Shown piece after piece: positions 8,167-61,383 of a stretch of DNA of 64,000 nucleotides. A model generated the notes under the pieces. The model worked only from the letters and a program-made list of their open reading frames with translations. It did not search any database and was not told the DNA's origin. Numbering within the stretch: the first letter of the stretch is position 1; the number at the start of each line of letters is the position of its first letter. The DNA comes from Vibrio ruber DSM 16370 (GTDB lineage Bacteria; Pseudomonadota; Gammaproteobacteria; Enterobacterales; Vibrionaceae): positions 1 through 64,000 of the forward strand of contig NZ_FULE01000017.1 of NCBI RefSeq assembly GCF_900163965.1. The letters are read 5' to 3'. The translations under genes were made by a program, and so were the position numbers.

Positions 8167-8169
8167 GCA

Positions 8170-45220: not shown

Positions 45221-45241
45221 AGGGGACGCTTGTCGTCCCCT
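45221..45241 (+). terminator. Terminator after the nuclease gene
   Basis: A perfect stem AGGGGACG/CGTCCCCT with a five-base loop; a T-run follows after a short gap (GTCATTGTTTT). Confidence 0.75.
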
Positions 45242-45300
45242 GTCATTGTTTTGCGACTGGCATTCGCCTGAACCTGAACGTGTCAAACGACACATCTCCA

Positions 45301-46505
45301 TTTTTATCTTTTCTGCCTTTGGCTCCCAGATTTGACGCACAATTGCGTTTCTCAATTTCAGAGACATCGTTACTCAGTGCGCCAGTTCATCTTTCAAAGA
45401 TGAAAGACGAACCAGAACATCTTTTTTTGTTTGGCTTGGTCACTCGTTGTCCAGAACCAGCTTTTACGGGCGTCCTGCCCGGAAAAGCTTAACCATTCTT
45501 CCGTGAATGGTTTTCTTGGTTGGGTGGTTTGTTTGAATAAAGTGAAACATTGAATCAACAAAGCTCAATTGAACAATGCTCTCAGGGTGAAAAATCATGG
45601 ACGATTTTTCAGGATTGCTTGAGCAGGATGCGAATCAATCCGACCCTGATTATGTGCGCTAAACTCAACCCCGCGGCCTTTTGGGGTACTTTTTCGGCCT
45701 TGAAAAAGTATCTGGGGCGCAGTCGGAGATGCTAATGAAATCGCGTAATGGGATTGCGCACCAAACCGCAGAGTCACAATTTTATCTTCCCAGCCTCAGG
45801 CTCCCAGATTTGACGCACAATTGCGTTTCTCAATTTCAGAGACATAGTTACTCAGTGCGCCAGTTCATCTTTCAGAGATGAAAGACGAACCAGAAAATCT
45901 TTTTTGTTGAGCTTGGGAGTGCGCTTTCCAGAACCAGCTTTTACGGGCGTCCTGCCCGGAAAAGCTTAACCATTCTTCCGTGAATGGTTTTCTTGGTTGG
46001 GTGGTTTGTTTGAATAAAGTGAAACATTGAATCAACAAAGCTCAATTGAACGATGCTCTCAGGGTGAAAAATCATGGACGATTTTTCAGGATTGCTTGAG
46101 CAGGATGCGAATCAATCCGACCCTGATTATGTGCGCTAAACTCAACCCCGCGGCCTTTTGGGGTACTTTTTCGGCCTTGAAAAAGTATCTGGGGCGCAGT
46201 CGGAGATGCTAATGAAATCGCGTAATGGGATTGCGCACCAAACCGCAGAGTCACAATTTTATTTTCCCAGCCTCAGGCTCCCAGATTTGACGCACAATTG
46301 CGTTTCTCAATTTCAGAGACATAGTTACTCAGTGCGCCAGTTCATCTTTCAGAGATGAAAGACGAACCAGAAAATCTTTTTTGTTGAGCTTGGGTGTGCG
46401 CTTTCCAGAACCAGCTTTTACGGGCGTCCTGCCCGGAAAAGCCTAACCATTCTTCCGTGAATGGTTTTCTTGGTGGAGTGGTTTGTTTGAATTTAGTGAA
46501 ACATT
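45301..46505. repeat. Tandem duplication of a 477-bp repetitive element (2.5 copies)
   Basis: Copy 1 spans about 45321-45798, copy 2 45799-46275, and a partial copy 3 46276-46505. The first two are nearly identical, differing at a handful of bases; the third stops at GAAACATT, after which unique sequence begins. Each copy has small hairpins (CGGGC-5-GCCCG; TTCATCTTTC...GATGAAAG). Short frames of 60-70 codons inside are identical between copies and look non-genic; very similar short hypothetical proteins are, from memory, annotated many times in Vibrio genomes, so this is probably a dispersed intergenic repeat. A diverged fragment recurs at 52381-52470. Confidence 0.9.
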
Positions 46506-46897
46506 TCTAACAAACCAACTTCCTGATAATAAAAACGCTGCAATTTTGTACAAAACCTATCTGCATCAAAAAATGTCATGTTTGTGTCAATTTTTTCTGG
46601 CGATTTTCTGTAACATATTTAATGCTATGCAGAGTGTTCAGATGCTTACTTGCGAACCAATAGCGCTTATCTGAGATGTTTATGGTGGGTGGAGACGTTA
46701 GTCAATCATTTGTGAGTGAGTTAGACAGTGTTGTGCTGTGATTTCTGTTCTGACGCAGTGACATTTTTTACTGGTATTTTGTCTGTGTTTTCATGCGATT
46801 AGGACATAAATTTCATCAAATATCAGTAAATTATACAGAAGTATTCCTATAGAGGCTTCTGTATAATAAGCTGTTACAAGTCAAAGAGTGCCAAGAA
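46506..46897. other. Leader region before the first cassette gene
   Basis: About 390 bases of AT-rich DNA follow the repeat array. No gene and no recognisable attI site were found. The only strong structure is the palindrome at 46832-46865. Confidence 0.4.
46832..46865. promoter_or_regulatory. Ten-base perfect inverted repeat upstream of the first cassette gene
   Basis: TATACAGAAG and CTTCTGTATA are exact inverted copies around a 14-base spacer. They end 32 bases before the TTG start at 46898, a suitable place for an operator or a leader hairpin. Confidence 0.5.
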
Positions 46898-47713
46898 TTG
46901 AAGCAAACTAGAAACTTAGAAATTGAAGAAAAAGTATTTGAGATAGCTGATTTAAAGCGTTTCTCGGAGATATTTGATAAACAAAAGCAACTTGCCGAAA
47001 AATCAGATCACCATTATCAACTTGAATACTCAATCAGCTTTGAAGACAAAACATCTTTCGATAGTGATTCTTCATCTATTTTTGATGAAAGTTCAATTAT
47101 CGACACGAAGCGGCCTTTGGATGTGAGGTTCGGTTTTTATAATTACACTCTAGGCAGAAGAATAGATCTTCGGTTAACTCATGGTATGTCAAGCTATGGA
47201 AATAATTTAACTGTATCCGGGCAGGAATCTGCGTGGGTTAATGATCAGTTTATGATTTTGAAGGAGCGGATTGATGCCGTTAAACCACAAGGAACATGGT
47301 TCTCCAAACATCCTCTTGTTTTAATAAACATAGTCGCGCTTGGTATTGGCAGCTTGGTTATGCTTATCATAGGTGCGCTTGTTAACTTAATGCTACCAGA
47401 AACGCCTCTGACTCAAAGTTTATCACCTGAAGCTGTAGAAAAGCTTAAGGGTATTGTTGAGCACTTATCATCTTATAGTGCCGCATTTTATATATTTGGG
47501 TGGTTTTGCCGATGGTTTCTTGGCTACATGTGGGGGGCATATGAGATTTCAAAGTGGTTTCTTAAGGCGTGGCCAAGTATAGAGTTAGACTTTGGCGCAG
47601 AACATTTGAAAAAGGAAAAGAAAATTCGAGCGAGACTTGCGGCACTAATTTCACTAGTTGTGATTCCATTATTAGTGACCATTGGTCTTGATTTGATTAA
47701 AAACCATTTGTAA
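46898..47713 (+). CDS. Cassette-encoded membrane protein of unknown function
   Basis: A 271-residue protein I do not recognise. The first 135 residues are soluble and charged, with a Ser/Asp-rich stretch (DSDSSSIFDESS). Three or four hydrophobic helices follow: HPLVLINIVALGIGSLVMLI at about 142-165, another at about 190-215, and a last one at about 248-266. The likely start is TTG, since no early ATG is in frame; the ribosome site is weak. The stop codon TAA at 47711-47713 is the first part of an attC site, the typical end of an integron cassette. It lies upstream of and on the same strand as the DUF4297/SMC pair but in a separate cassette, so a functional link is unproven. Confidence 0.65.
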   Translation: MKQTRNLEIEEKVFEIADLKRFSEIFDKQKQLAEKSDHHYQLEYSISFEDKTSFDSDSSSIFDESSIIDTKRPLDVRFGFYNYTLGRRIDLRLTHGMSSYGNNLTVSGQESAWVNDQFMILKERIDAVKPQGTWFSKHPLVLINIVALGIGSLVMLIIGALVNLMLPETPLTQSLSPEAVEKLKGIVEHLSSYSAAFYIFGWFCRWFLGYMWGAYEISKWFLKAWPSIELDFGAEHLKKEKKIRARLAALISLVVIPLLVTIGLDLIKNHL

Positions 47714-47778
47714 CAAGCGCATGTTGTCGGACTGGTTTTCCGCTACGCTCCAAACCAGCCACAAATGCGTGAGTTAGC
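47710..47778 (+). other. attC site 1 (integron recombination site)
   Basis: The site opens with GTAACAAGCGCAT and closes with ATGCGTGAGTTAGC, which are imperfect inverted copies with R''-like TAAC and R'-like GTTAGC core boxes. An inner palindrome GGACTGGTTT/AAACCAGCC surrounds a short centre. The size (about 69 bases), imperfect dyad and overlap with a stop codon fit a Vibrio cassette attC. Confidence 0.75.
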
Positions 47779-47833
47779 TTTCTTTCGCTATATTTAAAAA
47801 TGGTAAATAGAAAAACAATCATGGAAGTAATTT

Positions 47834-48910
47834 ATGGTAAATAGTAATGCAGGTGTAGAGGGTAGCTCTGGCTATTCGTTTCAGCGCTGCTGTGTTGTCT
47901 TTCTTTTATTTGAAGACTATGAAGAGATCAACTCAAATAATTACTTCATTTGCTTGGAGCACCATGAAGATTTTCTATTCGCATTTTTGGATGACAATGG
48001 ACAGTTAAAAAAAGTTGATACATACCAAGCGAAGAAATCAAGAGATGACTGGAGAACAGACGACGACCTTTGCGAAATTATTGGTAAAATGACGATGGTA
48101 GGAAAGGAGCTTGTCAGTGACCCTATTGAAAAGTCTAACGATTATCAACATACATTAAACTTTCTTACCAATCGAAGCATATTATTAACAAGTAAGAAAG
48201 AAAAGGGTGAGAAACAAGATAAAGTCAAAGTCCAAGTTTCAAATAAAAGAAAAAAATATTCTGATCTATCGGAAAAAATTAAGAGTAACATTGAATCTCG
48301 GATTTGCCAATCAATACATGAAATCACTCAATTAGAGCACGTTTATTTTCAATATATTGATTTTGCTCAAAGCCACAAAAGCTGGCAAAGAGAACTAAAA
48401 GGCTTGGCCATTGAGCACTTTGGTCACGAGGTTAACGACCACGAAGCTGTTATTTCTACATTAATGCAATTATTAGAAGATGTAGCGCAAACGTATAATG
48501 ATGATAATAAAGTTCTTTTGTCTGATCGCAGCAAAAGAGTTACCAAAAATAAATTAGATGAAACATTCAAAATGTTCACTGAAAGTAGAAAATCGTTTGA
48601 TTTTTGGAGGCAGTATTCAGAGCAAATTTCAGCTCAACTGAATTTAAAACTCCCAATACGTCGAAGAGCCAAAGAGTTGCTTGAAAATTGCTTTGATTAT
48701 TTTAAAGACATTCAACAAATTGAATATCGAAAGATTTATAAATTTGTTGAAGAAAGAACGGATATCGATGAATTGCACGTAAGTGAAGCTGATTGTATTG
48801 TGGATTTATATCACCGCTATCAAGAAGAATTTCAACCTAGATTAGAAAATCATATGGTTTCATTTGCAGTAATTGCAGCGTATGTTGAGACAAGAGGAAT
48901 GCATGTCTAA
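47834..48910 (+). CDS. DUF4297 (Cap4-type) nuclease, Lamassu LmuA-like
   Basis: A 358-residue protein with an N-terminal PD-(D/E)XK-type nuclease domain (about 5-130). SSGYSFQRC at the start, the acidic pair in CLEHHEDFLF, and the VDTYQAKK motif (D...QxK) are the pattern of DUF4297/Cap4 endonucleases. The remaining 230 residues are helical, with no known domain seen. In Lamassu (Ddm) systems a Cap4-type LmuA is held inactive by an SMC-like LmuB until foreign DNA is sensed. Here the next gene encodes an SMC/Rad50-like ATPase and overlaps the last eight bases. The ATG at 47834 follows GGAAG. The gene is more AT-rich than the chromosomal flanks, as expected of acquired DNA. Confidence 0.72.
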   Translation: MVNSNAGVEGSSGYSFQRCCVVFLLFEDYEEINSNNYFICLEHHEDFLFAFLDDNGQLKKVDTYQAKKSRDDWRTDDDLCEIIGKMTMVGKELVSDPIEKSNDYQHTLNFLTNRSILLTSKKEKGEKQDKVKVQVSNKRKKYSDLSEKIKSNIESRICQSIHEITQLEHVYFQYIDFAQSHKSWQRELKGLAIEHFGHEVNDHEAVISTLMQLLEDVAQTYNDDNKVLLSDRSKRVTKNKLDETFKMFTESRKSFDFWRQYSEQISAQLNLKLPIRRRAKELLENCFDYFKDIQQIEYRKIYKFVEERTDIDELHVSEADCIVDLYHRYQEEFQPRLENHMVSFAVIAAYVETRGMHV

Positions 48911-50648
48911 TTTAATTTTGAAAAGTTTATTGGTTTACTCACCAAGTGACGAGAAAGGCTTTTACACAGATTTCAGTGAATCAGTAAATATCGTTCACGG
49001 TCGAAATACTTCAGGAAAAAGCACTCTTATTCAGTCAGTTATTTATGCCATGGGAATAAATTATTCAAAAGATCATTTAAGTGATATTAATAATGATGGT
49101 GTTTTTTTTCGTCTTGATTGCGTTCTAAAAGATAATGAAGAATATTATGAACTGGTGTTTGTTCGCTCAGATGACACGTTAGTTTTAAAAAAAGGAAGTG
49201 AGCCACCTATAAGGTTTGATGGTATTAATAGTAATAATTCTTTTGAATATGGTAGGTATAAAGATATTTTTTCAAAATTAATTGGTTTTGATTTGGTCTT
49301 GCAAAAGCAATCAGAGTTAATCGGCGCACCATTAGAAGCAGCACTGTTACCCTATTATGTGTCTCAATCAGTAGGCTGGGTTTATATACGTGAATCAATT
49401 GGAGATTATAGGTTTTATAAGGATTTTAAATTCGATTATTTGGATTATTATCTAGGCATTGAAAATGGTCATGAGAGAATAAATAAATATAATCTTGAGA
49501 AAGAGAAAAAGGAACTGAAATTTGAGCTGAGTCAACTTAACTCTTATGAAGATAAAAAAGAAGATTTTAAAGTATCAAAACTACTTGATGATCGTTTTAA
49601 AGGCGAAGCTGAAAGCTACTTAGAAAACTATCAACATTTAAATAAAGACTTATCTGAAAAAGAAACTGAACACACAAAGTTATGCAATAAGTTGAGTTTG
49701 TTGAGAGGTCGACAAAAGGTATTGACTCAAATAATAGCCAACATCAAGAATCAAAAACCAAAAATTGATCAATGCCCTACATGCAATCAAAGCCTTCCTG
49801 GGGATTTGGAAGAATTCTATCTTTATAGCCAAGATATTAATGACGCTTTGAAAGAAAAGGATAATGTAAAAGAACAAATTAAAAAAATCGCAGCGAAATT
49901 GAATTCAGTCGAAAATGCTATATCGATATCTAGAACAAAAATAGAGAAAGATTATGCTTTATTACGAAATTTAAAGGCGAGCGATATTACATTTGACTCT
50001 TGGCTAGATCACAACGCAAATCTAAGAATGTTAAAAAATATCGCAACCAAGAAAACATCTTGTAAAAAAAGAATTGATGAGATAGATGATGATATAGGAA
50101 AAATTGGAAATGGCATTGATATAGATGTTTTGAGGCGTGTCAAGGAAAAAGAGTTTTTTTCTATATTTAAACGCAATGTCTTAGCTTTAGGTGCTCAACT
50201 TCCAAAAGAAAACAAATATCATAACTTGTATTCTTTAAGCTCATTTCCCTGTCAAGGTGTTGAACTGCATAAACTATTAATGGCTTATAATTTTTCGTTT
50301 TACGAAATGGTCATGAAAAACCAGAACGTTCATAGTTTCCCATTTCTTCTTGATGCTATTTTTAAAGAAGACATTGATACAGAGAGTCGAGGTAATATAT
50401 TCAATTTCCTTTCTCATGAAACTAAATCCAGTGGGCAGATTATTTTTTCTGTCGCAGAATACAAGGGGGATGAAACTTCATTAGTTCCACTTTTTGATGT
50501 TGAGGCTATTAAGAGCCAATATTTTACTGCAGATACAAAATTAATATGTATTGGAGATAGCAAAACAAAGCGCTCATTTCTATCCAAATCAGCTGTTATA
50601 GATAGTGAATTAATTAACGATACAATAAGTTTTTTGGAAGTTGTCTGA
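48903..50648 (+). CDS. SMC/Rad50-like ATPase, Lamassu LmuB-like
   Basis: A 581-residue ATPase. The Walker A is VHGRNTSGKSTLIQ (about residues 29-42). Coiled-coil arms (about 190-380) flank a Rad50-type zinc hook CPTC (about 300). The C-terminal head has FPFLLDAIFKEDI as a probable Walker B with Asp-Ala. The ABC signature is poorly recognisable (FPCQGVELHKLL). The start at 48903 overlaps the nuclease gene stop; an upstream in-frame ATG (48873) lies deeper within it and is less likely. In Lamassu, the SMC subunit recognises DNA ends or structures and releases the nuclease. The protein is short for an SMC but in the size range of V. cholerae DdmC-type proteins. Together with the upstream nuclease it makes a compact two-gene unit. 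Confidence 0.75.
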   Translation: MSNLILKSLLVYSPSDEKGFYTDFSESVNIVHGRNTSGKSTLIQSVIYAMGINYSKDHLSDINNDGVFFRLDCVLKDNEEYYELVFVRSDDTLVLKKGSEPPIRFDGINSNNSFEYGRYKDIFSKLIGFDLVLQKQSELIGAPLEAALLPYYVSQSVGWVYIRESIGDYRFYKDFKFDYLDYYLGIENGHERINKYNLEKEKKELKFELSQLNSYEDKKEDFKVSKLLDDRFKGEAESYLENYQHLNKDLSEKETEHTKLCNKLSLLRGRQKVLTQIIANIKNQKPKIDQCPTCNQSLPGDLEEFYLYSQDINDALKEKDNVKEQIKKIAAKLNSVENAISISRTKIEKDYALLRNLKASDITFDSWLDHNANLRMLKNIATKKTSCKKRIDEIDDDIGKIGNGIDIDVLRRVKEKEFFSIFKRNVLALGAQLPKENKYHNLYSLSSFPCQGVELHKLLMAYNFSFYEMVMKNQNVHSFPFLLDAIFKEDIDTESRGNIFNFLSHETKSSGQIIFSVAEYKGDETSLVPLFDVEAIKSQYFTADTKLICIGDSKTKRSFLSKSAVIDSELINDTISFLEVV

Positions 50649-50755
50649 TGTCTAGTCACATTATCCATACAAGACGCTCCAATTGACACAGCGGTCTACG
50701 CTCGTTTATGTGCATTTGATGCACTCATTGTTGCACAACACTCACTACAACCGCG

Positions 50756-50899
50756 GTGCAAATTACACTCACTGAGGATGAAGCGTGGGTTCTATTGGAA
50801 TTTATGCTGTGTCTTTGAAAGGCTCTACATCAAGATTCTGATCTTAAATATATGGACTTTATTGCTGCATGCAGAGATAGGCTTCGTGATGAAGAGTAA
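50756..50899 (+). pseudogene. Decayed cassette ORF with internal stop
   Basis: One reading frame gives VQITLTEDEAWVLLEFMLCL, then a stop (TGA), then KALHQDSDLKYMDFIAACRD and a charged end RLRDEE with TAA just before attC2. Both halves are in the same frame and look like the two ends of the small LTEDEAW...RDRLRD-type proteins often seen in Vibrio cassettes. The middle seems deleted. Its position directly before attC2 is where a cassette gene should end. Confidence 0.5.
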
Positions 50900-50907
50900 T
50901 AAGCAAC

Positions 50908-50977
50908 ACATAACAAACAAAGGCAGCCTCGCCCTGCGGGCTGGACGCGCTAACGCGCGACGCTGCTTTGGGCGTTC
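50908..50977 (+). other. attC site 2 (integron recombination site)
   Basis: ACATAACAAACAAAGGCAGC pairs with GCTGCTTTGGGCGTT around a GC-rich centre that is itself palindromic (GACGCGC/GCGCGAC-like). The left arm has one unpaired extra G, the extrahelical base that sets attC polarity. The R' end reads GTTCCGG instead of the usual GTTAGRY, so the site may be partly worn. Confidence 0.75.
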
Positions 50978-51056
50978 CGGTCATAAAAAGCGAGGCCTAT
51001 ACCGAACTTGCTAACGCTCACCGTTTAGCGAAGCGTTACGCATCACAAGGAAATAC

Positions 51057-51332
51057 ATGTCAAAAGTAACATTGAAAAGCTTTATTTTAGTTCCTGAGTC
51101 AGAGCTTAAATTAGTAAAAAGTGAGCTGGTAAACCATAAACGTCTTACCCTCGAAGAGACAGGTTGCATCACGTTTAGCGTCATCCAAAATTCGGAAAAC
51201 CCTCTTCGTTTTGACGTTTACGAAGAGTTTACGGATAAAGCGTCTTTTGAACAACATCAGAAAAGAGTCAAAGCATCTCATTGGGGTAAAGTGACCGTCA
51301 ACGTAGAACGTCACTATGAGATCTTTGAGTAA
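51057..51332 (+). CDS. ABM-domain monooxygenase-like protein
   Basis: A 91-residue protein of the antibiotic-biosynthesis-monooxygenase (ABM) superfamily, a small ferredoxin-like fold. The blocks are LVNHKRLTLEETGCITFSV, RFDVYEEFTDKASFEQHQKR and HWGKVTVNVERHYEIFE. Relatives such as YgiN act on quinols or reactive aldehydes without a cofactor. ABM genes are frequent cargo of Vibrio integron cassettes, and here the gene follows attC2 and ends at another attC-like half. AAGGAAAT gives its ribosome site. Confidence 0.85.
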   Translation: MSKVTLKSFILVPESELKLVKSELVNHKRLTLEETGCITFSVIQNSENPLRFDVYEEFTDKASFEQHQKRVKASHWGKVTVNVERHYEIFE

Positions 51333-51335
51333 ACA

Positions 51336-51357
51336 CATAACAAACACCATAGCTTTG
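51336..51357 (+). other. Half attC site (broken)
   Basis: CATAACAAACACCATAGC directly after the ABM stop matches the left arm of Vibrio attC sites. No matching right arm was found in the next 100 bases, so the cassette boundary seems truncated here. Confidence 0.5.
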
Positions 51358-51467
51358 AATTGAATCGCATTTTTCTCAGTAATACGCATAAATTAGGGTG
51401 TGATGGTATTCTTTGCCTGCACCCTCTTTTATGCTAAAGCCATTCATCACTGACCAAATGTTGCTTT

Positions 51468-52349
51468 ATGAAAACCTCCCTCGATCATCTGCCTGAATTC
51501 AAACAGCAAGAGCTTGCCACGATCTCGACTATTTTGCGTGATACGTTGGAAGGCTATCTTGAGGGCAAAACCGGGAGTAAAAGTGAGTTTCGTATCCTGA
51601 AAATCATCCTGTTCGGCAGCCACGCCAAAGGGAATTGGGTCAGCGATCCGGTCAATGGTTACATCAGTGATTACGATATTCTGGTGATCGTCAATAAGGC
51701 TGCCTTGGTGGAAGATTATGTCGTCTGGCAGCGGGCTGAAGAGCAAATTGATCGCAAAGTGAAATCCGCGCCGTTGGGTTTGATTGTTCACGATTTGCAG
51801 GAAGTGAATGAACGATTGCAGCAGGGGCACTACTTTTTCCGGGATATCCGTGAAGAAGGGATTGAACTGTTTACCGCGACACCGAAGCCGCTGATGGAGC
51901 CGGGGGATTTAACCGAGGCCGAAAAACGGGAAATTGCCCGTAAACATTATGCACAGTGGTTTAAAAGCGCGAATGCCTTTATCTCCGGTTATCATCACTA
52001 TTTAAATCAAAAAGAGTTATCGATCGCTGCTTTTGAATTACATCAATCGACGGAACGTTTTTTGGCCTGTGTATTACTCACATGCACCAACTATTTACCC
52101 AAATCCCACAATATCGAGAAGCTGAGTAAACTGTGTGCGCAAATCGAGCCTGAGTTTAAGACGATTTTCCTGCTCGACAATAAATTCCACCGCCGCAGCT
52201 TCCGTCGCCTGCAACGCGCCTATATCGAAGCCCGTTATTCAGAACATTATGAAATTACCGCAGAAGAGCTGGCTTATCTCGAAGGGAGAGTGTTGCAGTT
52301 AAAAGCAGTGGTTGAACGGGTTTGTTTAGCGCGGATTAACGGGGCTTGA
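51468..52349 (+). CDS. MNT-HEPN fusion protein
   Basis: A 293-residue protein. An N-terminal minimal nucleotidyltransferase (about 40-130; LFGSHAKGNWVSDP and YISDYDILVIV give the GS...DxD site) is fused to a C-terminal HEPN domain (about 150-285; RKHYAQWFKSANAFISG, HQSTERFLACVL). MNT and HEPN proteins form type VII toxin-antitoxin pairs, where MNT AMPylates the HEPN RNase. Fused forms are widespread but poorly characterised. An RxxxxH-type RNase motif could be RYSEHYE near residue 265, but it is not clearly canonical. The gene lies between the broken attC and the diverged repeat fragment. GC content is closer to the core genome than the defence cassette. Confidence 0.8.
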   Translation: MKTSLDHLPEFKQQELATISTILRDTLEGYLEGKTGSKSEFRILKIILFGSHAKGNWVSDPVNGYISDYDILVIVNKAALVEDYVVWQRAEEQIDRKVKSAPLGLIVHDLQEVNERLQQGHYFFRDIREEGIELFTATPKPLMEPGDLTEAEKREIARKHYAQWFKSANAFISGYHHYLNQKELSIAAFELHQSTERFLACVLLTCTNYLPKSHNIEKLSKLCAQIEPEFKTIFLLDNKFHRRSFRRLQRAYIEARYSEHYEITAEELAYLEGRVLQLKAVVERVCLARINGA

Positions 52350-52380
52350 GGACACAAAACCACCATTGTTTAACTTTCGT

Positions 52381-52470
52381 AATTCCCAGCCTTAGGCCCC
52401 CAAAACTTGACGCACTATTGTATTTTTCGATTTCAGAGGCATTGATGCCTGTGCGCCAGTTACTATTTTG
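52381..52470 (+). repeat. Diverged fragment of the 477-bp repeat
   Basis: CCCAGCCTTAGGCCCCCAAA and the following ACTTGACGCACTATTG through GTGCGCCAGTT match the start of the repeat units at 45.8 and 46.3 kb with scattered changes. It lies on the far side of the accessory island. Confidence 0.75.
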
Positions 52471-52474
52471 AACA

Positions 52475-52759
52475 CTAGCGCCGTTTCATCGCCTTACGGT
52501 AAACATCACTACGCTCGCGCTTGCCGACGGCTAAGACGGTGACAATAATGACATCGTCTTCGACTTTGTAGACTAAGCGGTAACCCGATTGGCGCAATTT
52601 TATTTTGTACATATTGTCAGCGCCAGAAAGTTTTGAGGCTGGCACATGCGGGTTCTCTAATCGCTCAATCAGCTTTTTCTTAAATTGCTGTTGCAGCGTT
52701 GAACCAAGCTTTTCCCACTCTTTGAGTGCACTCTTTTTGAATTCAAGTTTATAGGTCAT
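52475..52759 (-). CDS. relE: RelE-family toxin
   Basis: A 94-residue toxin very like E. coli RelE: ALKEWEKLGSTLQQQFKKKL, YKIKLRQSGYRLVYKV and AVGKRERSDVY keep the basic residues that cut mRNA in the ribosomal A site. The true start is ATG 52759, which overlaps the antitoxin gene by 11 bases, the usual toxin-antitoxin arrangement. Longer in-frame starts inside the antitoxin gene are unlikely. Near-identical modules sit in the V. cholerae superintegron and stabilise cassette arrays. Confidence 0.93.
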   Translation of the reverse strand: MTYKLEFKKSALKEWEKLGSTLQQQFKKKLIERLENPHVPASKLSGADNMYKIKLRQSGYRLVYKVEDDVIIVTVLAVGKRERSDVYRKAMKRR

Positions 52760-52997
52760 CAATATGAACCGAAATGCTCTCTTCAGATTCACGCTCTTTC
52801 GCAATAGCAAGTAGCTCAAGATCTTCGAGTTTATCCATCATCATTTCGTACGCTTCAGCGGGTACGCAATAAAATACTGGCTCATTTCGGTTGAGTACAG
52901 CGACCGGTTCACCGTAAGCACTTGTTGCAACTTTCATCGGGTTTGCTTTTAACTCAGTAATACTGGCAGCAACATCAGCCAAAATTTTAGAGGTCAT
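52749..52997 (-). CDS. relB: RelB-family (Phd/YefM-like) antitoxin
   Basis: An 82-residue antitoxin. The N-terminal DNA-binding part (ILADVAASITELKANPMKVA) has the Phd/YefM-like fold. The acidic C-terminus (LLAIAKERESEESISVHIDD) wraps the toxin. It resembles the RelB proteins of the V. cholerae superintegron. The pair should repress its own promoter, upstream of 52997. It is the last element of the accessory island before core genes resume. Confidence 0.92.
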   Translation of the reverse strand: MTSKILADVAASITELKANPMKVATSAYGEPVAVLNRNEPVFYCVPAEAYEMMMDKLEDLELLAIAKERESEESISVHIDDL

Positions 52998-53304
52998 AAA
53001 CAGGTCTCTTAAATGGTCTTTATATTGGTCATTCTAGTCTCAAGCAAGCGGTATAACAAGAGGTCATCGCATCTATCATTCATTCTCACTCACCTTATGA
53101 TGAACATGAAAAAGTTGCTCAATAATCCTCCAATTGCTGAACGTGATTCATCAATCAGAAATCGGTTCATGCACTGTCAAACATAAGAATTAGCTCACAC
53201 CTTCACCAATTTGCATTTGATCCTGAATGGTGAGTTTGTATGTTATTAGCTGAATCGATTCAGTAGAACAACAAATCAAACTCACTATCAAGGAATCAAA
53301 CGTC
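52998..53304. other. Intergenic region, relBE promoter side
   Basis: About 300 bases between divergent genes. The relBE promoter and that of the DUF4432 gene must be here. I see no further structure. Confidence 0.3.
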
Positions 53305-54525
53305 ATGAAGATCAAACCACTCGTCGCTGCCCTACTTATTGCTGCTCCCGGTCTTGTCAACGCTGCGGAGTTTGTTTTAACTGATGCTGCCGCCAATATT
53401 GATGTCGGTGCCTGGAAAATCACCAATAAAGATTTAGGCATTCAACAGCCTTTCTCCGTCGAAAAACGCCAGCTACATGGCGGCAAACAGATGGGAGTTG
53501 AAACGTTAGTGATCAACAACGGTGAGTTAGAAATCACCCTGGTCCCCACCCGTGGCATGGGAATATTTAACGTTAAGAAAGATGGCAAACGCATTCTCGG
53601 CTGGGATTCGCCGGTCAAAGAGATCGTCAATCCTGCATTTATTGATCTGGAAAGCCGCAATGGTCTGGGCTGGTTAGATGGATTCAATGAGATGATGGTG
53701 CGCTGCGGTTATGAGTGGACCGGTCACCCGGGAGTGGACGATAACGGTCAGCTCCTCAGTTTACATGGCCGCCTTCAAAATACCCCGGCTTCAACGGTTA
53801 AAGTGACTATCGACGATCAACCGCCTTATACCATTACCGTCGAAGGGGAAGTTTCTGAAAGAACGTTCAAAAAAGCAGAGCTCGTGACGCTTACTTCATT
53901 CTCGGTCACTCCCGGCAGCAATCAGTTTGCCGTTCATGACACTCTGACCAATAAAGCCGATTATCAAGATGAATATCAGATCATCTACCACTCTAACTTT
54001 GGCCGTCCGATTCTGGAAAAAGGCGCCAAAATTACCGCAGCGGCCAGTGAGATTTCTCCCTTTAACGATTACGCGAAAAAAGGCCTGAAAAACTGGCAAA
54101 CCTACCTTGGCCCAACCAAAGGCTATGATGAAATGGTTTATAACCTGAAGCCAATCGGTGATAAACAGGGTAACACGCTGGCGGTACTGCATAATCAGGC
54201 CGGAAACCTCGGCGTCTCCGTCGGTTACAACATCAAACAGCTACCGGTTCTGACCATCTGGAAGAATACTGATACGCTGCAACAGGGCTATGTCACCGGA
54301 ATCGAACCGGGCACCAGTTATGCTTATAACACCAAATATCAACGCCCACTGGGGTTAGTCCCTAAAATTGAGGCCGGTGCATCCAAACATTTTGATGTTA
54401 CATACACAGTATTACGCAACACCGGAGAAGTGGAACAGGCTTTGGCCACTGTGGCAGACATTCAGGGCAAACGTCGCGTCAAGCAGGTGAAAAAACCACT
54501 GGTTGATTTAACCAAAGTTCACTGA
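53305..54525 (+). CDS. Periplasmic aldose-1-epimerase-like protein (DUF4432)
   Basis: A 406-residue protein with a signal peptide (about 1-20, ending VNA). Its body is galactose-mutarotase-like, of the DUF4432 type: ITLVPTRGMGIFNV, GWDSPVKEIVNP, LDGFNEMMVRCGYEWTGHPG, LLSLHGRLQNTPAS and VTGIEPGTSYAYN. Cytosolic relatives are thought to act on sugar anomers; an exported version may process sugars in the periplasm. The catalytic Glu/His pair is plausible in GIEPG and LHGR but not proven. It is monocistronic with a bidirectional terminator after it. Confidence 0.85.
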   Translation: MKIKPLVAALLIAAPGLVNAAEFVLTDAAANIDVGAWKITNKDLGIQQPFSVEKRQLHGGKQMGVETLVINNGELEITLVPTRGMGIFNVKKDGKRILGWDSPVKEIVNPAFIDLESRNGLGWLDGFNEMMVRCGYEWTGHPGVDDNGQLLSLHGRLQNTPASTVKVTIDDQPPYTITVEGEVSERTFKKAELVTLTSFSVTPGSNQFAVHDTLTNKADYQDEYQIIYHSNFGRPILEKGAKITAAASEISPFNDYAKKGLKNWQTYLGPTKGYDEMVYNLKPIGDKQGNTLAVLHNQAGNLGVSVGYNIKQLPVLTIWKNTDTLQQGYVTGIEPGTSYAYNTKYQRPLGLVPKIEAGASKHFDVTYTVLRNTGEVEQALATVADIQGKRRVKQVKKPLVDLTKVH

Positions 54526-54598
54526 TGATGTTCCTATACTTAATTTGCAATCTCTGATGCGTCATCGACAGAGTGACCAAATATGGTCAAGAGTACAT

Positions 54599-54630
54599 AA
54601 CAAAAAGACCCGAACGGGTCTTTTTGTTTG
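54599..54630. terminator. Bidirectional terminator
   Basis: AAAAAGACCCG and CGGGTCTTTTT form a perfect stem with A and T runs on both sides, between convergent genes. Confidence 0.95.
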
Positions 54631-54696
54631 TCAGCGAAGATATCAATAATGTGATTCGTGGTGACGCAACGACAACTCTTGCTCAACATTCCTCCT

Positions 54697-56181
54697 CTAT
54701 TGGTTGTGATGCTTTTCCCTGACCATTTCAGATACATATTCGATCACCCGGTTACTGGCATGTTCAGCTTTATCGACCACGTCAACCAGACGATGCAATA
54801 CATCATCATCTGCCAACCAGTCTTCACGCACCAATTTCAGTGCTTCTTGCATATTTTGATGCACCGCTTGATGATGCTCTTCTAAACGGTGGTAGGCGCT
54901 TGTCTGACTGAAGGCCTCATAACCTTCACCTTCGTAATACCATTTACCCATCCGACAATTGAAATGATCAACCTGAACTTCTTTCGCTTCAGCACCTTCT
55001 CCGTTTGATTCCAGTGCGATATAGCCGTTTTGTTTATAGATGACATGATCCAGTTTAATCAACGACGCAAAAGAGCAGTCTTTGGCCTGATTCATGAGTG
55101 AGATAGTTTGTTGTGAGGCATTGGCAACCTTGTCAAAGTTGCTATGAAAATTAGTGACTTCATCGCCGACATTTTTCATTTGTTGCCCGACGGCCAACGT
55201 CTGAGACACCATCTCTTCAATCGGGCCAATCAATGAGTTAATAATTTCGCTGATATCCGCGGTTGATCTTCTGGTGCGATCAGCCAGCGAGCGCACCTCA
55301 TCGGCAACCACCGCAAAACCGCGTCCGACATCCCCGGCACGAGCCGCTTCAATGGCAGCATTTAAAGCCAGCAAATTGGTTTGTTCGGCAATACCGGTAA
55401 TCACCTTGATGGTATCGGCAATCCGGACACTCTCCTGACCCAACCTTTGTGCAGTCTGTTCCATGCTCACCATCCGCACATTAACATCATCAAGCGCGTG
55501 GCGGATATCCCCCACCACTTCACGGCTTTGTACTGCGCCATCGCGACTTTCCGTCGCAATCGTCAGCACATCATCCATCTGATTCGACAAGGTCACCAGT
55601 TCTTCCTGATTATTTTTTAGATTGACGATCAAATTGGTGGTATTGAGGTGATGCAATTCACTTTTTAAACGGTTTTTTCGAGAAAAAATATGTGCTTGCT
55701 GCATCGATTCAATTGCTTCGTTGATACTGCGCATGGTTTCGAAAAATTCACCGGGCATACCGTCCACCAACCCGCGGCGGTAGAACACCCCCTTACTTGT
55801 GCGCTGAAAAGTGTTCGACAACTCTTTAAAATTGGTTTCAACAATATCCAGAAAATCATTCAATGCCCATGCCACATGTCCGACTTCTCCCAGCCCTTTG
55901 GTATCGGTAATACGGATATGAACATTACCTTTTTTGGCCTCATTCAAAGTATCACGAATCCGTTTCAGCACCATCAATGGTTGTAGTTGATCCCAATAAG
56001 CATAAACCGAAAAAACGATGGTAAATAACGGTAAGAGGCTATTAAAATAGTTGAAGCCGTGATCGTAAATATTGGCAATCGACAACCCGATAATGACGAT
56101 GGTGAACACTGAACAGACAATCAAAAACTTCTGGCGCTGAAATAAAATATTGCTACTGACCTGACTCGTACTGCGCATCAT
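54697..56181 (-). CDS. Methyl-accepting chemotaxis protein with C-terminal CZB zinc domain
   Basis: A 494-residue chemoreceptor. Two membrane helices (about 18-38 and 48-65) with almost no periplasmic loop lead to a HAMP-like segment (about 70-125). The signalling domain has the tip [20 protein letters not shown] (about 260-290). A C-terminal CZB domain (about 370-460) shows [32 protein letters not shown], the 3His-1Cys zinc site. CZB domains sense zinc or hypochlorous acid. It follows the PAS-only gene after 9 bases, and the two look like a split Aer. The start has AAGGAG. Confidence 0.92.
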
Positions 56182-56190
56182 TCACTCCTT

Positions 56191-56718
56191 CTAATCTGAA
56201 CGATGTTGCTGGTAAAGGTCGATGATGTATTCTTCATACTCCATATGATATTGCTGATGAATCAAATCAACCAGCCATCGCCACGAAACTTCAGGCGCTT
56301 GTTTTCTTTCAGTGGCCTGTTCCAATTCACGCATTTTTTGATAGATGCCTTCAATGGTTTGTACCGCATCTTTGGGGGCGACCCGGCGTACTGAATAAAA
56401 ACCAACGACATCTGTGCCGATACGATCCGGCGTGATATTGGCAAAAACCCAGTAGTAATTTTTATCTGAGGTATAGTTTTTCACAAAACCGAAAAACTCT
56501 GTTCCTGATTTCAGGGCGTGCCATAAACCATAGAAGACACCTCGCGGCATTGAAGGATGGCGGATCAGATTATGATCCCGCCCCAGCAGATCTGCTTCTA
56601 CATAGTTTGCGACGCGCATAAATGTGCGGTTTGCGTAGGTGATTTTCCCCTGCAAATCCGTTTTGGTGATAATCAGTTCATTCCGGTCGAATGATACTTC
56701 CTGTTCTGTAGCCGCCAT
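56191..56718 (-). CDS. Aer-like PAS-domain protein
   Basis: A 175-residue soluble PAS protein. The PAS core (about 10-120) has ITKTDLQGKITYANRTFMRV, GRDHNLIRHPSMPRGVFYGL and GFVKNYTSDKNYYWVFANIT, which are the blocks of Aer-type, FAD-binding PAS domains. A helical tail follows. In one-piece Aer the PAS domain is joined to a HAMP and signalling domain; here the next gene supplies the membrane and signalling parts, so the two products probably work together in energy taxis. A consensus FNR-type site lies 74 bases before the start. Confidence 0.88.
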   Translation of the reverse strand: MAATEQEVSFDRNELIITKTDLQGKITYANRTFMRVANYVEADLLGRDHNLIRHPSMPRGVFYGLWHALKSGTEFFGFVKNYTSDKNYYWVFANITPDRIGTDVVGFYSVRRVAPKDAVQTIEGIYQKMRELEQATERKQAPEVSWRWLVDLIHQQYHMEYEEYIIDLYQQHRSD

Positions 56719-56791
56719 ACCTCTCCCTAGACAATGCTCGATCCTCTTAAGAAACTATATGCTATGGCTAAAATATGGCAAAGTTTATAGC

Positions 56792-56805
56792 TTGATACAT
56801 ATCAA
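56792..56805. promoter_or_regulatory. Consensus FNR-type binding site
   Basis: TTGATACATATCAA matches TTGAT-N4-ATCAA exactly. It lies between the divergent PAS/chemoreceptor operon (start 56718) and the homocysteine methyltransferase gene (start 56956), and could control either. Confidence 0.65.
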
Positions 56806-56955
56806 CTTTCTATGATTCATTTTCTTTACGCTCAAGCCGGAAAATCACAGAATCTATTGCATCGCGATTCGATTACGATAAACTGCTCGCGGACATCTAC
56901 ACTGCCAGACGTATATTTAATTTTTCTTGGTCATCAATCAACACAGAGGTATCTC

Positions 56956-57870
56956 ATGTCAGAACATCAAGTCACCCTCCTCGACGGCGGAATGAGCCGG
57001 GAACTGGAACGTCTCGGGGCGCCCTTTCGCCAACCCGAATGGTCTGCTCTTGCTTTGATTGAAACTCCGGAAATTGTCCAACAGGCACATGAAGTTTTTA
57101 TTCGCAGTGGCTCAGAGGTGATTACCACCAATAGCTACGCCTTGGTGCCCTTTCATATCGGTGAGACCCGTTTTAAACATGAAGCACTGACGCTGGCACA
57201 AAAAGCGGGGCAGATGGCTCGTCAGGCTGTTGAAGCCACTCAGACTCACGCTCAGGTTGCCGGCTCGCTACCGCCTTTATTCGGCTCTTATCGTCCGGAT
57301 TTATATCAAGCAGATCGGGTGGATGAAATTGCTGCGCCGCTGATTCAGGGGCTCAGCGCTTTTGTTGATTTCTGGCTAATCGAAACCCAAAGCCTGATCG
57401 CTGAAGCAACCGCAATCAAAGCATCAATTGACCGCTTTAGCGACCGCTCAAAACCGGTTTGGGTTTCATTTACGCTGGAAGATTCAGAGCCGGTTGAGCA
57501 ACCCGTCATCCGTTCCGGCGAAACCGTCGCACAAGCAGTGCGAGCCTTGGCCGAGCAAAACGTCGGGGCGATTCTGTTCAACTGCTGTCAACCGGAAACC
57601 ATCGAAGATGCAATTGATGTGGCTCGTAACACCCTTGCTGAGCTCGGCAAAAGTGACATTCAGCTTGGCGCTTATGCCAATGCATTTGCGCCACAGAAAA
57701 AAGATGCGGCTGCCAATGAAGAGATTGACGAAATCAGAGCAGATATGACCCCACCAGCGTATGTCGCGTGGGCACAAAAATGGTGTCGCCAAGGCGCTTC
57801 ACTGATTGGGGGTTGTTGCGGTATCGGCGCGGCACATATTAGTGAACTTCATCAGCATTTGAAATCGTAA
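56956..57870 (+). CDS. Homocysteine S-methyltransferase family protein
   Basis: A 304-residue barrel enzyme. The zinc-binding cysteines are visible in ILFNCCQPE (about 205) and SLIGGCCGIGAAHI (about 285). The N-terminal LLDGGMSRELERLG is the family start. It probably transfers a methyl group from S-methylmethionine or a related donor to homocysteine, as MmuM does. The frame opens 48 codons earlier at 56812, but ATG 56956 is chosen since AGGTATCTC lies just before it and the family begins here. Confidence 0.88.
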   Translation: MSEHQVTLLDGGMSRELERLGAPFRQPEWSALALIETPEIVQQAHEVFIRSGSEVITTNSYALVPFHIGETRFKHEALTLAQKAGQMARQAVEATQTHAQVAGSLPPLFGSYRPDLYQADRVDEIAAPLIQGLSAFVDFWLIETQSLIAEATAIKASIDRFSDRSKPVWVSFTLEDSEPVEQPVIRSGETVAQAVRALAEQNVGAILFNCCQPETIEDAIDVARNTLAELGKSDIQLGAYANAFAPQKKDAAANEEIDEIRADMTPPAYVAWAQKWCRQGASLIGGCCGIGAAHISELHQHLKS

Positions 57871-58222
57871 ACAAGCTCATAAACGAGTCATCACAGACCA
57901 TCCCTTCCACAACCGACAACCCGAAACCGGGCTGAACAGATTGTCCTCACCACGGATTCAGCACTAAGTGCTGAATCCACATCCACAATTACGTGATATT
58001 CGTTCAAAAACTGTCGTCAAATAAGAATCATCATGCACGAAAAAGCATCGATATGATGCGATCGTGTCAATGTCTATTTATTTCGTACAAACGACGCTAA
58101 TTGTTAATCCAAATCAATGTGCTACTACATGAGATCACGCAATATTGACACCTCAGTAAATAACTCACTCAAAAATGAAACTCTATAGACGTTGGCTCAT
58201 TCATTTTTACTATAGGACGCCT
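57871..58222. other. Intergenic region upstream of a chemoreceptor
   Basis: About 350 bases without a gene. A near-consensus FNR-like site TTAATCCAAATCAA (one mismatch) lies at 58104-58117, about 105 bases before the chemoreceptor ATG. Confidence 0.4.
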
Positions 58223-60256
58223 ATGATTCGTTACTACCAAAACAAGAGTATTAACACTCAATTACGAACGATTATGCTCTTTTGCTTAATCATCTCTTTC
58301 TCAACCATTGCATTACTCGTATATCGCAGCGCTGCGGGTATTCTTTTAAACGCCACACTCGGTGATCACCAATCCAAAGTTGAAGGGATCGCCCAATCGA
58401 TATCACAACAGTTTTTCACTTACCTTGATACCACCAAAACACTGGAATCAACATTCCAGAACAGTTATCTGAAAGGATTAATCTGGCAGGATCAGGTCGT
58501 TGATTTCCGCGGATATCCGGTGACGGATGTCACCCTCAACGGTAAAAGCGTCATTGGCTCAACAGATGTTGTCGATCAATTCACGCGAGACACCGGTGCC
58601 ATTGCCACCTTATTTCTGCCTACAGGTCAGGACTGGGTGCGCGTTTCGACCTCACTGAAAAATAAGCAAGGTGCAAGAGCCGTCGGGACTTTGCTGGGTC
58701 AATCACACCCAGGGTATGAAAAACTTAGCCGCGGTGAACCCTACTATGCACAAGTGAATCTGTTCGGGACGCATTATCTCACTTACTATAATCCGCTCAA
58801 AAACCGTCAGCAGCAGGTTGTCGCGATCTCATTTATCGGTGTCCCTGTGGAAGAAGCGACCACTAAGCTCTTGCGTAATCTCAATCATGTTAAGTGGGGG
58901 GAGACCGGGAGTACCATGGTTGTGGATGCACGGGAAAACTCTCAGGGCAAATATTTGCTGAGCGGTGAAAGTACTCAAGCAGACTCAATTCTTGAAGAAA
59001 GAGATAGCAACGGGAACATTATTTTTAACGATATTTTCAAGCACGACAATGGCTTGATTCGTTACCAGCATTCAGGCCGTGATGGGATGCAAGAACGCTA
59101 TCTTGTCTATACCGATATCCCCGGCTGGGAATGGAAACTACTCGGTGGTACTTCGATTGATGAGATCACCGCAGGCAGTCAGGAACTGTTACAACTGATT
59201 GTCCTGATTTCATCGCTGGTCGGCGGTGCGACATTTGTCATCATTGCCCTCTTCCTCAGCCATACCATCAAACCGCTGATCAATTTAAGCCACATTATGG
59301 AGCGGTTAGGTCAAGGGGAAATCAGCCTGAGTATCAAGACAGGCGCGAAAGAAACCAAGAATGAGATTATCCGGCTGTACAATAGTGCGGCAGCCACAAT
59401 GACTCAGCTAAGCCAGTTGGTCGGCAATATCCGTTCCACCAGTGATCAGGTTCAGGAGCAATCCGCAGACGTACTGAGTGACGCCAATATCGGACTCACC
59501 CAGTCTGAGCGTCAACATGAACAAGTTGAACAGGTCGTCACCGCCATTGAAGAAATGGCAACTTCAGCCAAAGATGTGGCCATGCAGGTCGAAGCGATTG
59601 CCGAGAATGTCCGGCAAGCCAATGACAATACGCAATCGGGTCTGAATTTGGTTGAAGATGTTTGTATCGATGTGGCGCAATTGAATGACCAGTTGGCACA
59701 ATCCTCTCAGGCCATCGATCAACTCAGAACCGACAGTGAAAGCATTCAGACGGTAACGGAAATGATCGATGCAATTGCTGAACAGACCAACCTACTGGCG
59801 CTCAACGCGGCAATTGAAGCAGCACGAGCCGGTGATCAGGGACGTGGTTTTGCAGTCGTAGCGGATGAAGTCAGAACCTTGGCTCAGAGAACACAAACGT
59901 CAGTTCAGAGTGTGGTCACCATTATCGACAAGCTCAAGCATTCAACCAAAAATGCGGTGCAGATGATGCAACATAGTCAAAATCATGCGGATAACATGCT
60001 GACGAAATCTCAAGATGCCGGGACATCACTCGAAACTATCGCGGAGCAGATTCATTCAATTGCATCTCAAGCCCAAACGATCGCAACCACTGCAGAGCAG
60101 CAGGCGCAAGTCTCCGCAGATGTCGCCCAAAGTGCTTCAGAAATTAGTCAGTTGAACCAGCAAGGCCAAAAAACCAATGCGAAAACAGCCGAAAGCGCCT
60201 CAGCACTGCAATCTCTGGCTGAACACTTGAAACATCAGGTCGATTTTTTCCGTTAA
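58223..60256 (+). CDS. Methyl-accepting chemotaxis protein with Cache sensor
   Basis: A 677-residue receptor. A first helix (about 16-36) and a long periplasmic Cache_3-Cache_2-type domain (about 40-320; [18 protein letters not shown] and [20 protein letters not shown]) precede a second helix (about 325-350). HAMP and signalling domains follow, with the tip [20 protein letters not shown]. Ligands of this sensor type are usually small carboxylates or amino acids, but none is evident. ATG 58223 is chosen over 58175 since AGGACG lies before it. The gene is single, with a terminator after it. Confidence 0.93.
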
Positions 60257-60348
60257 CTCGTTTTTCACTCTGAGAGGAAATCAATATCGTTCATGAGTCG
60301 TTGCATCGACGACCACCGCCCAAGGCAGTTTAGTGATGACAACAAAAG

Positions 60349-60376
60349 AAAAGGGCTGCCAAGCAGCCCTTTTCTT
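60349..60376. terminator. Bidirectional terminator
   Basis: AAAAGGGCTGC-CAA-GCAGCCCTTTT, with a T-rich end on + and A-rich flank for the minus strand. It separates the chemoreceptor and luxT. Confidence 0.9.
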
Positions 60377-60398
60377 CATCCGCCTGATATTGACCCGG

Positions 60399-60887
60399 CT
60401 AAACAGGCTCCGGTTCAAAGATTTCATGATTACTCATCGCCACGAGAGATTTACCCAATAACCATTCCAGCTCTTTCTCTGCATCGGTACCTAATTTCTC
60501 TTCGATCAGATGATACATACGTTCCAGCCCCTGACGAGAGACATCAACCGAGCGCTCTGCAGAAATAATATGGTGGAAAAGGAATCTTAAAATCGCGACA
60601 AACTGACTGTGTTCCAATGCTTGAATCCAGCTCCGGCGAAACGCAACAACACCATTTTCTAACTCAAGGTAAGAGGTGAAAAGCAGGAAAATCCGGCTAT
60701 TCAATGCGGTGGCAAAGTCAGTCTTTTTCGGAAAGTGATGGCTGATCCCCGTTCGGGAAATTCCTGTCTGCTGACTGAGTGTCGTATATGACATGCGGTC
60801 ATAGCCAAGATTCAGCACCTGATAGACGACCGCATCTAAAATTGTCTGAATCGTGACTTCTGTTTCTTCTCTGCTACGCTTAGGCAT
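60399..60887 (-). CDS. luxT: LuxT/SwrT-type TetR regulator
   Basis: A 162-residue TetR-family regulator. The N-terminal HTH (about 12-60) contains GYDRMSYTTLSQQTGISRTG and SHHFPKKTDFATAL, which closely match my memory of V. harveyi LuxT. A short helical ligand domain follows. LuxT/SwrT proteins regulate a quorum-sensing small RNA, siderophore and secretion genes, and lateral flagella in other vibrios. The length is slightly above LuxT (about 153). It is single, with a terminator shared with the upstream chemoreceptor. With cqsA/cqsS it is the second quorum-sensing-linked gene in the window. Confidence 0.82.
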   Translation of the reverse strand: MPKRSREETEVTIQTILDAVVYQVLNLGYDRMSYTTLSQQTGISRTGISHHFPKKTDFATALNSRIFLLFTSYLELENGVVAFRRSWIQALEHSQFVAILRFLFHHIISAERSVDVSRQGLERMYHLIEEKLGTDAEKELEWLLGKSLVAMSNHEIFEPEPV

Positions 60888-61383
60888 AATGTAACTCTCT
60901 TAAAATTAGGCGAGCCTCACCTTTTCGTAAACACGTTATGCCAAGGTAAGAGGCACTTCACCATGATGATCCATTCAAAAATATGGGAAGCCAAATTGCC
61001 TCTCTCCGTTATTTCGGCAATATCGGGGGTCCCAACGTTCAATCAAAAATGAATAAACACCATTCATGCATTTCTCAAGTTACATTCTCGCCACTTCTGC
61101 ACAGCCACAATATGACTCTCAGTTTATGCGCTGGTATCGTCACCTGACTCTCTCCGATCAGGTCACCGAATTGGAATAGAATGGTGCTCACTCAAGCGCT
61201 TGGAATATGACAGCGTCTGAATATAAAGCTCATCATCTCAGATTCATTGATAGGAACAATCATATCACCCGAATTCTGTTACCCCCTTGGCATGAATCCT
61301 GATGATTATGAGAGTTGAATCACATATAAATATTTCTGATGCGTCATACATCACCATTGTCACACAAAATCAACGTGTTACTA
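60888..61383. other. Intergenic region upstream of luxT
   Basis: About 500 bases without a supportable gene, continuing past the MITE copy to 61906. The luxT promoter must lie at its left edge. No operator-like repeat stood out. Confidence 0.4.

Follow-up and report, generated by a model that had tools for sequence, protein, structure and literature searches.

Within a stretch of 64,000 nucleotides of the genome of Vibrio ruber DSM 16370 (contig NZ_FULE01000017.1, positions 1 to 64,000; hereafter the window), two overlapping genes, lmuA and lmuB, encode a two-gene (type I) Lamassu defence system. Very probably, this system spread as an integron cassette, which in V. ruber has lost its own attC site and has become fused to a resident cassette; because no integrase gene was found in the genome, the module would now be essentially fixed. 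The left border of the pair is base-exact and common to three genera, a complete cassette of the same pair is present in Marinospirillum minutulum, and the DNA to the right of the pair is also found, free of Lamassu, in a sister species. The relevant features of the window are as follows.

46898–47713, + strand: upstream cassette gene, an open reading frame (ORF) of 271 amino acids whose attC is site A; matched neither by PADLOC nor, above the cut-off, by Pfam
47708–47779, + strand: site A, attC; contains the Lamassu cassette border, 47773/47774 (G^TTAGCT)
47774–47833, + strand: cassette leader, common to the Thalassolituus and Marinospirillum loci L006 and L007; GGAAG before the start codon, by eye like a ribosome-binding site
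47834–48910, + strand: lmuA, 358 amino acids, predicted Cap4/PD-(D/E)xK-type nuclease effector; PADLOC PDLC00244
48903–50648, + strand: lmuB, 581 amino acids, Rad50/SMC-like ATPase; PADLOC PDLC00250
50649–50755, + strand: unassigned stretch of 107 bases from LmuB to the fusion point; left-arm resemblance at 50660–50687, no right arm seen
50756–50907, + strand: small ORF of the resident cassette, broken and with its start missing, read by eye; the same DNA follows a start codon in the sister species
50908–50980, + strand: site B, accepted as the attC belonging to the small resident cassette; crossover border 50974/50975
51057–51332, + strand: third cassette, with a 91-amino-acid antibiotic-biosynthesis-monooxygenase-like gene (Pfam ABM, E 3.7e-8)
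51335–51351, + strand: third attC, apparent left arm only, recognized by eye and joined directly to chromosomal sequence

Cassette borders in the window and in other genera

Sites of the attC type were called with a covariance model of our own, a structural scan and a sequence comparison, and not with IntegronFinder's own model. The covariance model was trained on 32 attC-like sites, none of them in the window; their sources were integron arrays in related genomes and the Marinospirillum locus. The sites in the arrays of the genus are presumably similar to Vibrio cholerae repeats. In the sequence test, the best local alignment to this 32-site set was compared with those of 200 plain base shuffles. 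The structural scanner, which gave 4 and 8 matches in two plainly base-shuffled windows and several likely chance sites in the window besides site A, one of them within lmuA, was used to collect candidates and as second-line evidence for the Thalassolituus repeats described below.

Site A, which the first-pass annotation of this DNA had read as an attC, is well supported as such: it matches the covariance model at 25 bits (E 0.00069 over the window), its local alignment score of 97 compares with a shuffle maximum of 29 (n=200), and over 66 bases it shares 89.4% identity with the terminal attC of the Marinospirillum Lamassu cassette. It was also detected by the structural scan, which missed site B.

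A pattern-based scan covering 84,980 species genomes yielded five close relatives of the pair (L006–L010), all of them lacking any gene between lmuA and lmuB. In one of these, M. minutulum (L007), LmuA is 93% and LmuB 90% identical to the window proteins, and DNA homology to the window (92.5% over 2,877 bases) starts at 47773 and ends at 50649. On this 7.7 kb contig, lmuAB is flanked in the same orientation by attC sites at 3081–3152 and 6034–6105, the second lying 12 bases past the LmuB stop codon, so that the Lamassu cassette measures 2,953 bases; two further attC sites are present as well. Three of the four attC sites of this contig were included in the training set of the model, though first found by the structural scan, and the fourth (6611–6738, 74.7 bits) was not. 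The preceding cassette (509–3152) carries genes for a C5 DNA methyltransferase, a helix-turn-helix protein akin to the control proteins of restriction systems and a third protein, at most 377 amino acids long, without a family match, and probably represents a restriction-modification cassette adjoining the Lamassu cassette.

In Thalassolituus alkanivorans (L006, 94% identical), homology to the window extends over 2,879 bases at 90.2% identity, starting at 47774, the window crossover base, and ending at 50651. A metagenome-assembled genome of the Methylococcaceae (L009, 71% identical) has, after LmuB, an attC-like site whose sequence score was reached by none of the 200 shuffles. Altogether, six relatives exceed 55% identity: one of them is an entire cassette, two have a single cassette border and three have none. 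This comparison shows that the branch of type I Lamassu to which the window pair belongs travels among marine Gammaproteobacteria as an integron cassette of about 2.95 kb. One of the six, from genome G058 (L043, 7192–11679), has an LmuB that is 59% identical and an lmuA whose two pieces encode sequences 56% and 71% identical to LmuA, separated by about 1.6 kb with ORFs that by eye resemble transposase genes.

The distribution of the pair is patchy. LmuA was found in 4 of 61 related genomes and in 7 of 227 genomes of the genus, counts that include V. ruber itself and, in the genus, one fragment with stops. The close subfamily is confined to one of the 227 (V. ruber), and five others possess a distant form with 29–35% identity, their LmuA being 28–32% identical in the alignment. 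In a sample of 369 genomes of the class, the only match was again V. ruber; one match was found in plasmid records and none in phage records. The upstream cassette gene is likewise present in a single one of the 227 genus genomes, that of V. ruber.

Probable fusion to a resident cassette

Comparison with the three-contig genome of the sister species G187, 59.7 kb of which were aligned with the window, located the fusion point. The two are collinear at 1176–45226 (in pieces) and at 50756–61310, with no match for 45227–50755. The block 50756–61310, site B included, is present in the sister species at 89% identity and without Lamassu; directly to the left of the point matching 50756, a small cassette ORF begins in that genome, preceded by an attC-like site that is not clearly above shuffles in the sequence test (19 of 200). 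In the window, the start of this ORF is replaced by lmuAB and 107 bases. It thus seems that lmuAB lost its own attC and that its 3' end was joined, at 50755/50756, to an internal position of a small cassette already resident there.

Taken by itself, site B scores poorly, and it is accepted as an attC because of its relatives in two other species. One of these, in G065, is 86% identical (L058, 8104–8176), matches the model at 21.2 bits (E 0.015) and lies within a run of attC sites on the same strand. The other, in G152, is shorter and 82% identical (L059, 7688–7766); it has no model match of its own and lies between same-strand matches at 7208–7324 and 8147–8242. The earlier identification of site B as an attC can therefore be retained on the strength of these relatives and not of its own scores, and the site appears to belong to the resident cassette common to the sister species.

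These data bear on the simplest alternative, that the two genes form one intact, still mobile cassette with site B as its own terminal attC, as the first-pass annotation had proposed. Sites A and B do flank the pair in the same orientation, and the composite between their crossover points has a cassette-like size of 3,201 bases. However, site B and the DNA from 50756 onwards also occur in the sister species behind other DNA and without Lamassu, the homology of lmuAB to the Thalassolituus and Marinospirillum loci stops at the LmuB stop codon, and the Marinospirillum cassette is only 2,953 bases long, with its attC 12 bases past that stop. We consider this alternative unlikely, and a status of site B as the Lamassu cassette's own attC is not supported. 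What stands of the original proposal is the carriage of the pair as a cassette, in view of the exact left attC border, the complete cassette in Marinospirillum, the attC-like site in the Methylococcaceae genome and the attI-like border in Thalassolituus; what does not is the view of the V. ruber locus as one intact cassette.

The course of events that best explains these data would be the entry of the Lamassu cassette into a small cluster of cassettes between conserved chromosomal genes, followed by loss of its own attC through deletion or illegitimate joining at 50755/50756, a step suggested by the sister species and by the loci in Thalassolituus and Marinospirillum. An integrase supplied in trans could still excise the composite of 3,201 bases that sites A and B delimit.

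The genome of V. ruber has no integron integrase (IntI) detectable with TIGR02249 at E ≤ 1e-60, a threshold at which an IntI was recovered from 36 of 61 genomes. When the threshold was loosened, V. ruber and the sister species gave matches of no more than 74 bits (cut-off 265), a level of stringency at which 13 of 14 control genomes matched too. Matches of V. ruber proteins to NF011946 were rejected as IntI: the best scored 60.8 bits (cut-off 435) and all 14 control genomes also matched. The Marinospirillum genome contains a C-terminal IntI-like fragment (75.8 bits, profile positions 258–315) with one internal stop.

IntegronFinder 2 defines clusters of attC sites lacking an integrase (CALIN) as having at least two attC sites (PMC9024848). 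The cluster in the window, with at least two attC sites and no IntI found, is of this kind, on a count in which site B is weak by the model and the sites are called by our own attC model, not by IntegronFinder. It differs from a plain CALIN in lying between chromosomal genes conserved in the sister species and in being accompanied by further attC-like sites on other contigs, at least five of them, of at least 28 bits, on C82, C5, C97, C27 and C58; the seven matches obtained in this search are a lower bound, with 150 of 742 candidates scored and the window's own sites absent from the list.

Several observations weigh against this account. In Thalassolituus, no attC was detected behind LmuB by the model, the structural scan or the sequence test, and the attC-like site in the Methylococcaceae genome has no covariance-model match at E up to 10. 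The 107 bases that follow lmuB in the window are not attC-like: as a whole, their score against the attC set is reached by 152 of 200 shuffles, so that the loss of the cassette's own attC is read from the loci in Marinospirillum and the Methylococcaceae and has left no visible scar. Within this stretch, 26 of the 28 bases at 50660–50687 match the left arm of an attC-like site inside an attC array of species G242. Site B itself reaches only 13.4 bits (E 0.49) in the covariance model, and its sequence score is reached by 4 of 200 shuffles. The V. ruber genome is a draft in 103 contigs, so an integrase could be missing from the assembly; none was found in the three-contig genome of the sister species either. 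As to the proteins, LmuA had no phmmer match in the PDB, and a profile search gave a single match, to a surface glycoprotein (E 0.12); AlphaFold models built from six-sequence alignments were poor, with a mean predicted local distance difference test score (pLDDT) of 41 for LmuA, too poor for a fold search, and of 54 for LmuB. Finally, the pair has no detected attC in Marinifaba (L008), Psychrobacter (L010) and G058, which indicates that the family is not bound to cassettes; this corresponds in part to the case that the first-pass annotation had named as speaking against a cassette, a pair fixed outside integrons with no attC.

This last finding favours a second alternative, in which lmuAB was inserted into the chromosome like any other defence locus and only happens to lie next to attC sites. 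The distant pairs of the genus, five in number, point the same way, as their loci have no model match at E up to 1 (one match of 12.7 bits, E 1.9, was obtained in L045). Against it, the homology border with two other genera falls on the attC crossover base and the Marinospirillum pair has attC sites on both sides, which makes this alternative extremely unlikely. We therefore retain spread as a cassette, followed by fusion to the resident one, as the best explanation.

The Lamassu pair and its predicted function

The two ORFs, their shared orientation on the + strand and their overlap of eight bases (48903–48910), all noted in the first-pass annotation, were confirmed from the ORF list, and its suggestion of a Lamassu-like system is strongly supported by PADLOC profiles. 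LmuA matches PDLC00244 at E 1.8e-143 over residues 3–356 of 358, and the product of the adjacent gene matches PDLC00250 (LmuB) at E 8.4e-236 over residues 2–580 of 581. The DUF4297 label given earlier to LmuA comes from the wording of PADLOC's description for PDLC00244 and does not hold as a Pfam assignment: LmuA has no significant Pfam match. Profile searches thus agree with the proposed family in PADLOC and not, for LmuA, in Pfam; LmuB gives only sub-threshold SMC/AAA signals there, with the Rad50 and SMC models under their cut-offs.

The original form of Lamassu (type I) has two genes, and type II (DdmABC) has three (PMC12409362). The lmuA–lmuB junction has no middle gene that could encode LmuC, so the window pair is of the two-gene form and, as judged from its sequence, can be confidently assigned to ordinary type I. 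Its two-gene make-up, described earlier as unusual, is that of the original type I as described there.

Residues E42, H43, D46, Q65 and K67 of LmuA are invariant in all 12 aligned sequences. Four of them, E42, D46, Q65 and K67, combine acidic residues with a QxK motif, which we take to be the catalytic residues of a Cap4-like active site, and the invariant residues fit such a site.

LmuB of the window has the Walker A motif GRNTSGKST and a CPTC hook, the CPxC type, and is accordingly classed as a zinc-hook SMC/Rad50-like protein; its signature region reads FPCQGVEL, and its Walker B motif, LLDA, lacks the glutamate. The classical ABC signature is LSGGE, in the place of which LmuB has FPxQGVEL. 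In two alignments, one of six close LmuB proteins and one in which the window protein is set against seven other loci, a Paenibacillus plasmid among them, all sequences keep Walker A as G[RK]NTSGKS, the hook as CP[TA]C, FPxQGVEL and a Walker B ending in D-A. Since the odd signature and the missing Walker B glutamate occur in every aligned LmuB, they are a family trait, and the earlier view that the signature might mark a distinct subtype is not upheld. A glutamate-to-glutamine change in Walker B has been described as the general state of LmuB, in which ATP hydrolysis may be poor (PMC10586767); the D-A ending of the aligned proteins differs from it.

Ratios of nonsynonymous to synonymous substitution rates (dN/dS) of 0.05–0.19 for lmuA and lmuB against the loci in Thalassolituus, Marinospirillum and Marinifaba indicate that both genes are under purifying selection. 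The G+C content of the Lamassu region is 32% versus 46% in the flanks. A promoter scan of 46500–51600 gave 14 sites against a shuffle mean of 17.0; as sites are no commoner than in shuffles, we make no claim on expression.

By analogy with the family, LmuB, a short Rad50-like zinc-hook protein whose ATPase would probably bind ATP and hardly hydrolyse it, may sense abnormal phage or plasmid DNA such as stalled forks and, in line with PMC10586767 and PMC12904381, ends or hairpins, and would then release LmuA, a Cap4-like nuclease whose cleavage of DNA would abort the infection or kill the cell. A role other than defence, for example in DNA repair or plasmid maintenance, could be suggested by the resemblance of LmuB to Rad50, the more so as the defence activity of the pair is deduced from its genes. 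Yet Lamassu profiles match both proteins over their full length, the Rad50 and SMC models stay under their cut-offs, the close subfamily is patchily distributed (1 of 227 genus genomes), and the neighbouring cassette in Marinospirillum encodes a C5 DNA methyltransferase and a control-protein-like gene product; we regard such a role as very unlikely.

The window system is thus a further case of two known kinds, Lamassu and integron defence cassettes. It resembles other type I Lamassu systems in its A-B gene order, its short Rad50-like zinc-hook LmuB and, as we assume, its Cap4-like LmuA motif, and differs from them in being carried as an integron cassette. With the type II system DdmABC of V. 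cholerae it shares a nuclease effector, an SMC-like sensor and a role, predicted for the window pair, in plasmid and phage defence; DdmABC has three genes, with a middle component, and resides in a core genomic island (PMC12409362).

Antiphage cassettes have been reported in the chromosomal integrons of V. cholerae and V. parahaemolyticus and in mobile integrons (Darracq 2025, Getz 2025 and Kieffer 2025, cited in PMC12409362), and the Lamassu cassette resembles them in that its defence genes are bounded by attC. Systems of more than two genes are stated to be absent from integrons (PMC12409362), a pattern into which two-gene Lamassu fits; Lamassu differs in not being named among the integron systems in the available part of that article. 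In excerpts of PMC12753305, Lamassu is named on Vibrionaceae plasmids and not in integrons. No report of a Lamassu integron cassette was found in the literature covered, including part of PMC12342005, a coverage to which the primary papers on integron defence cassettes did not belong, so that absence from print is not established. The comparison would add a two-gene SMC/nuclease immune system to the integron cargo moved between genera, and it suggests a route from cassette to fixed chromosomal gene, by loss of an attC beside a resident cassette.

Dispersed repeats in Thalassolituus and neighbouring features

In T. alkanivorans, the 120 bases that adjoin lmuAB on its left (L006, 6821–6940) are part of a dispersed repeat of about 130 bases. 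It occurs in six of nine genomes of the genus (G617, G620, G621, G622, G623 and G625), with 4 to 7 copies each among the matches listed; in G626 there is a 41-base partial match, and G619 and G624 have none among the matches listed, in a search that scored only 40 candidates in some genomes. Sixteen distinct copies (loci L101–L118) were retrieved besides the lmuAB copy, and for 15 of them the downstream DNA exceeded 1 kb. The ending of most copies is a variant of ...CACACTAATAAGCTG^TTA, followed by unrelated DNA with an ORF starting 11–50 bases further on. The base before TTA is T at the lmuAB copy and A in L103; L117 and L118 are without this ending.

A downstream attC in the same orientation was found for 13 of the 15 copies, in 10 cases by the model (E 0.00043 or better) and in three by the cruder structural scanner only. 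None was found at L107, L117 or the lmuAB copy, and the repeat loci gave no model match on the opposite strand. The integron integrase of Thalassolituus scores 365 bits, and the region upstream of its gene (L106, near 11727–11854), which ends in ...GAGCACGCCTACGAATAAACTGTTATGC, resembles the repeat with a local alignment score of 56 versus a maximum of 44 among 200 plain base shuffles. On the simplest reading, the repeats would be scattered attI-like sites that each hold one or a few cassettes, lmuAB being the first cassette of one of them.

We tentatively extend this to a wider possibility, itself rather doubtful, that the type I Lamassu branch spreads as a cassette and repeatedly loses its attC and becomes locked, both in V. 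ruber and in Thalassolituus, where it would be the first cassette at one of many attI-like repeats served in trans by a single integrase. If so, Thalassolituus genomes would each amount to a genome-wide distributed integron and not to one array, and the repeats, if true attI sites, would call into question the rule of one attI beside the integrase. No description of dispersed attI-like repeats was found in listings of the open literature. At gathering scores, Rfam gave no match for the window, nor for L104, L103 or L006. To the left of the pair in the Methylococcaceae genome (L009, 4543–4560), ...ACATAATAACTTGTTAGC resembles by eye the end of the attI-like repeats; compared with the attC set, it scores no better than shuffles do.

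To the right of site B in the window, positions 51018–51345, with the third cassette, share 83.8% identity with a cassette that belongs to an attC array of a V. parahaemolyticus plasmid. The apparent left arm of the third attC was not detected by the covariance model, and its score is reached by 68 of 200 shuffles. Beside the cluster, 51468–52349 encodes a protein of 293 amino acids with a nucleotidyltransferase-like N-terminus and a HEPN domain, which is also present in the sister species. Two short overlapping genes on the − strand (52475–52997) are by eye toxin-antitoxin-like (RelE-like and Phd-like). To the left of the cassettes, 45284–46505 contains three copies of a long repeat, 477–478 bases apart, and a 43-base piece related to this repeat lies at 52400–52442.

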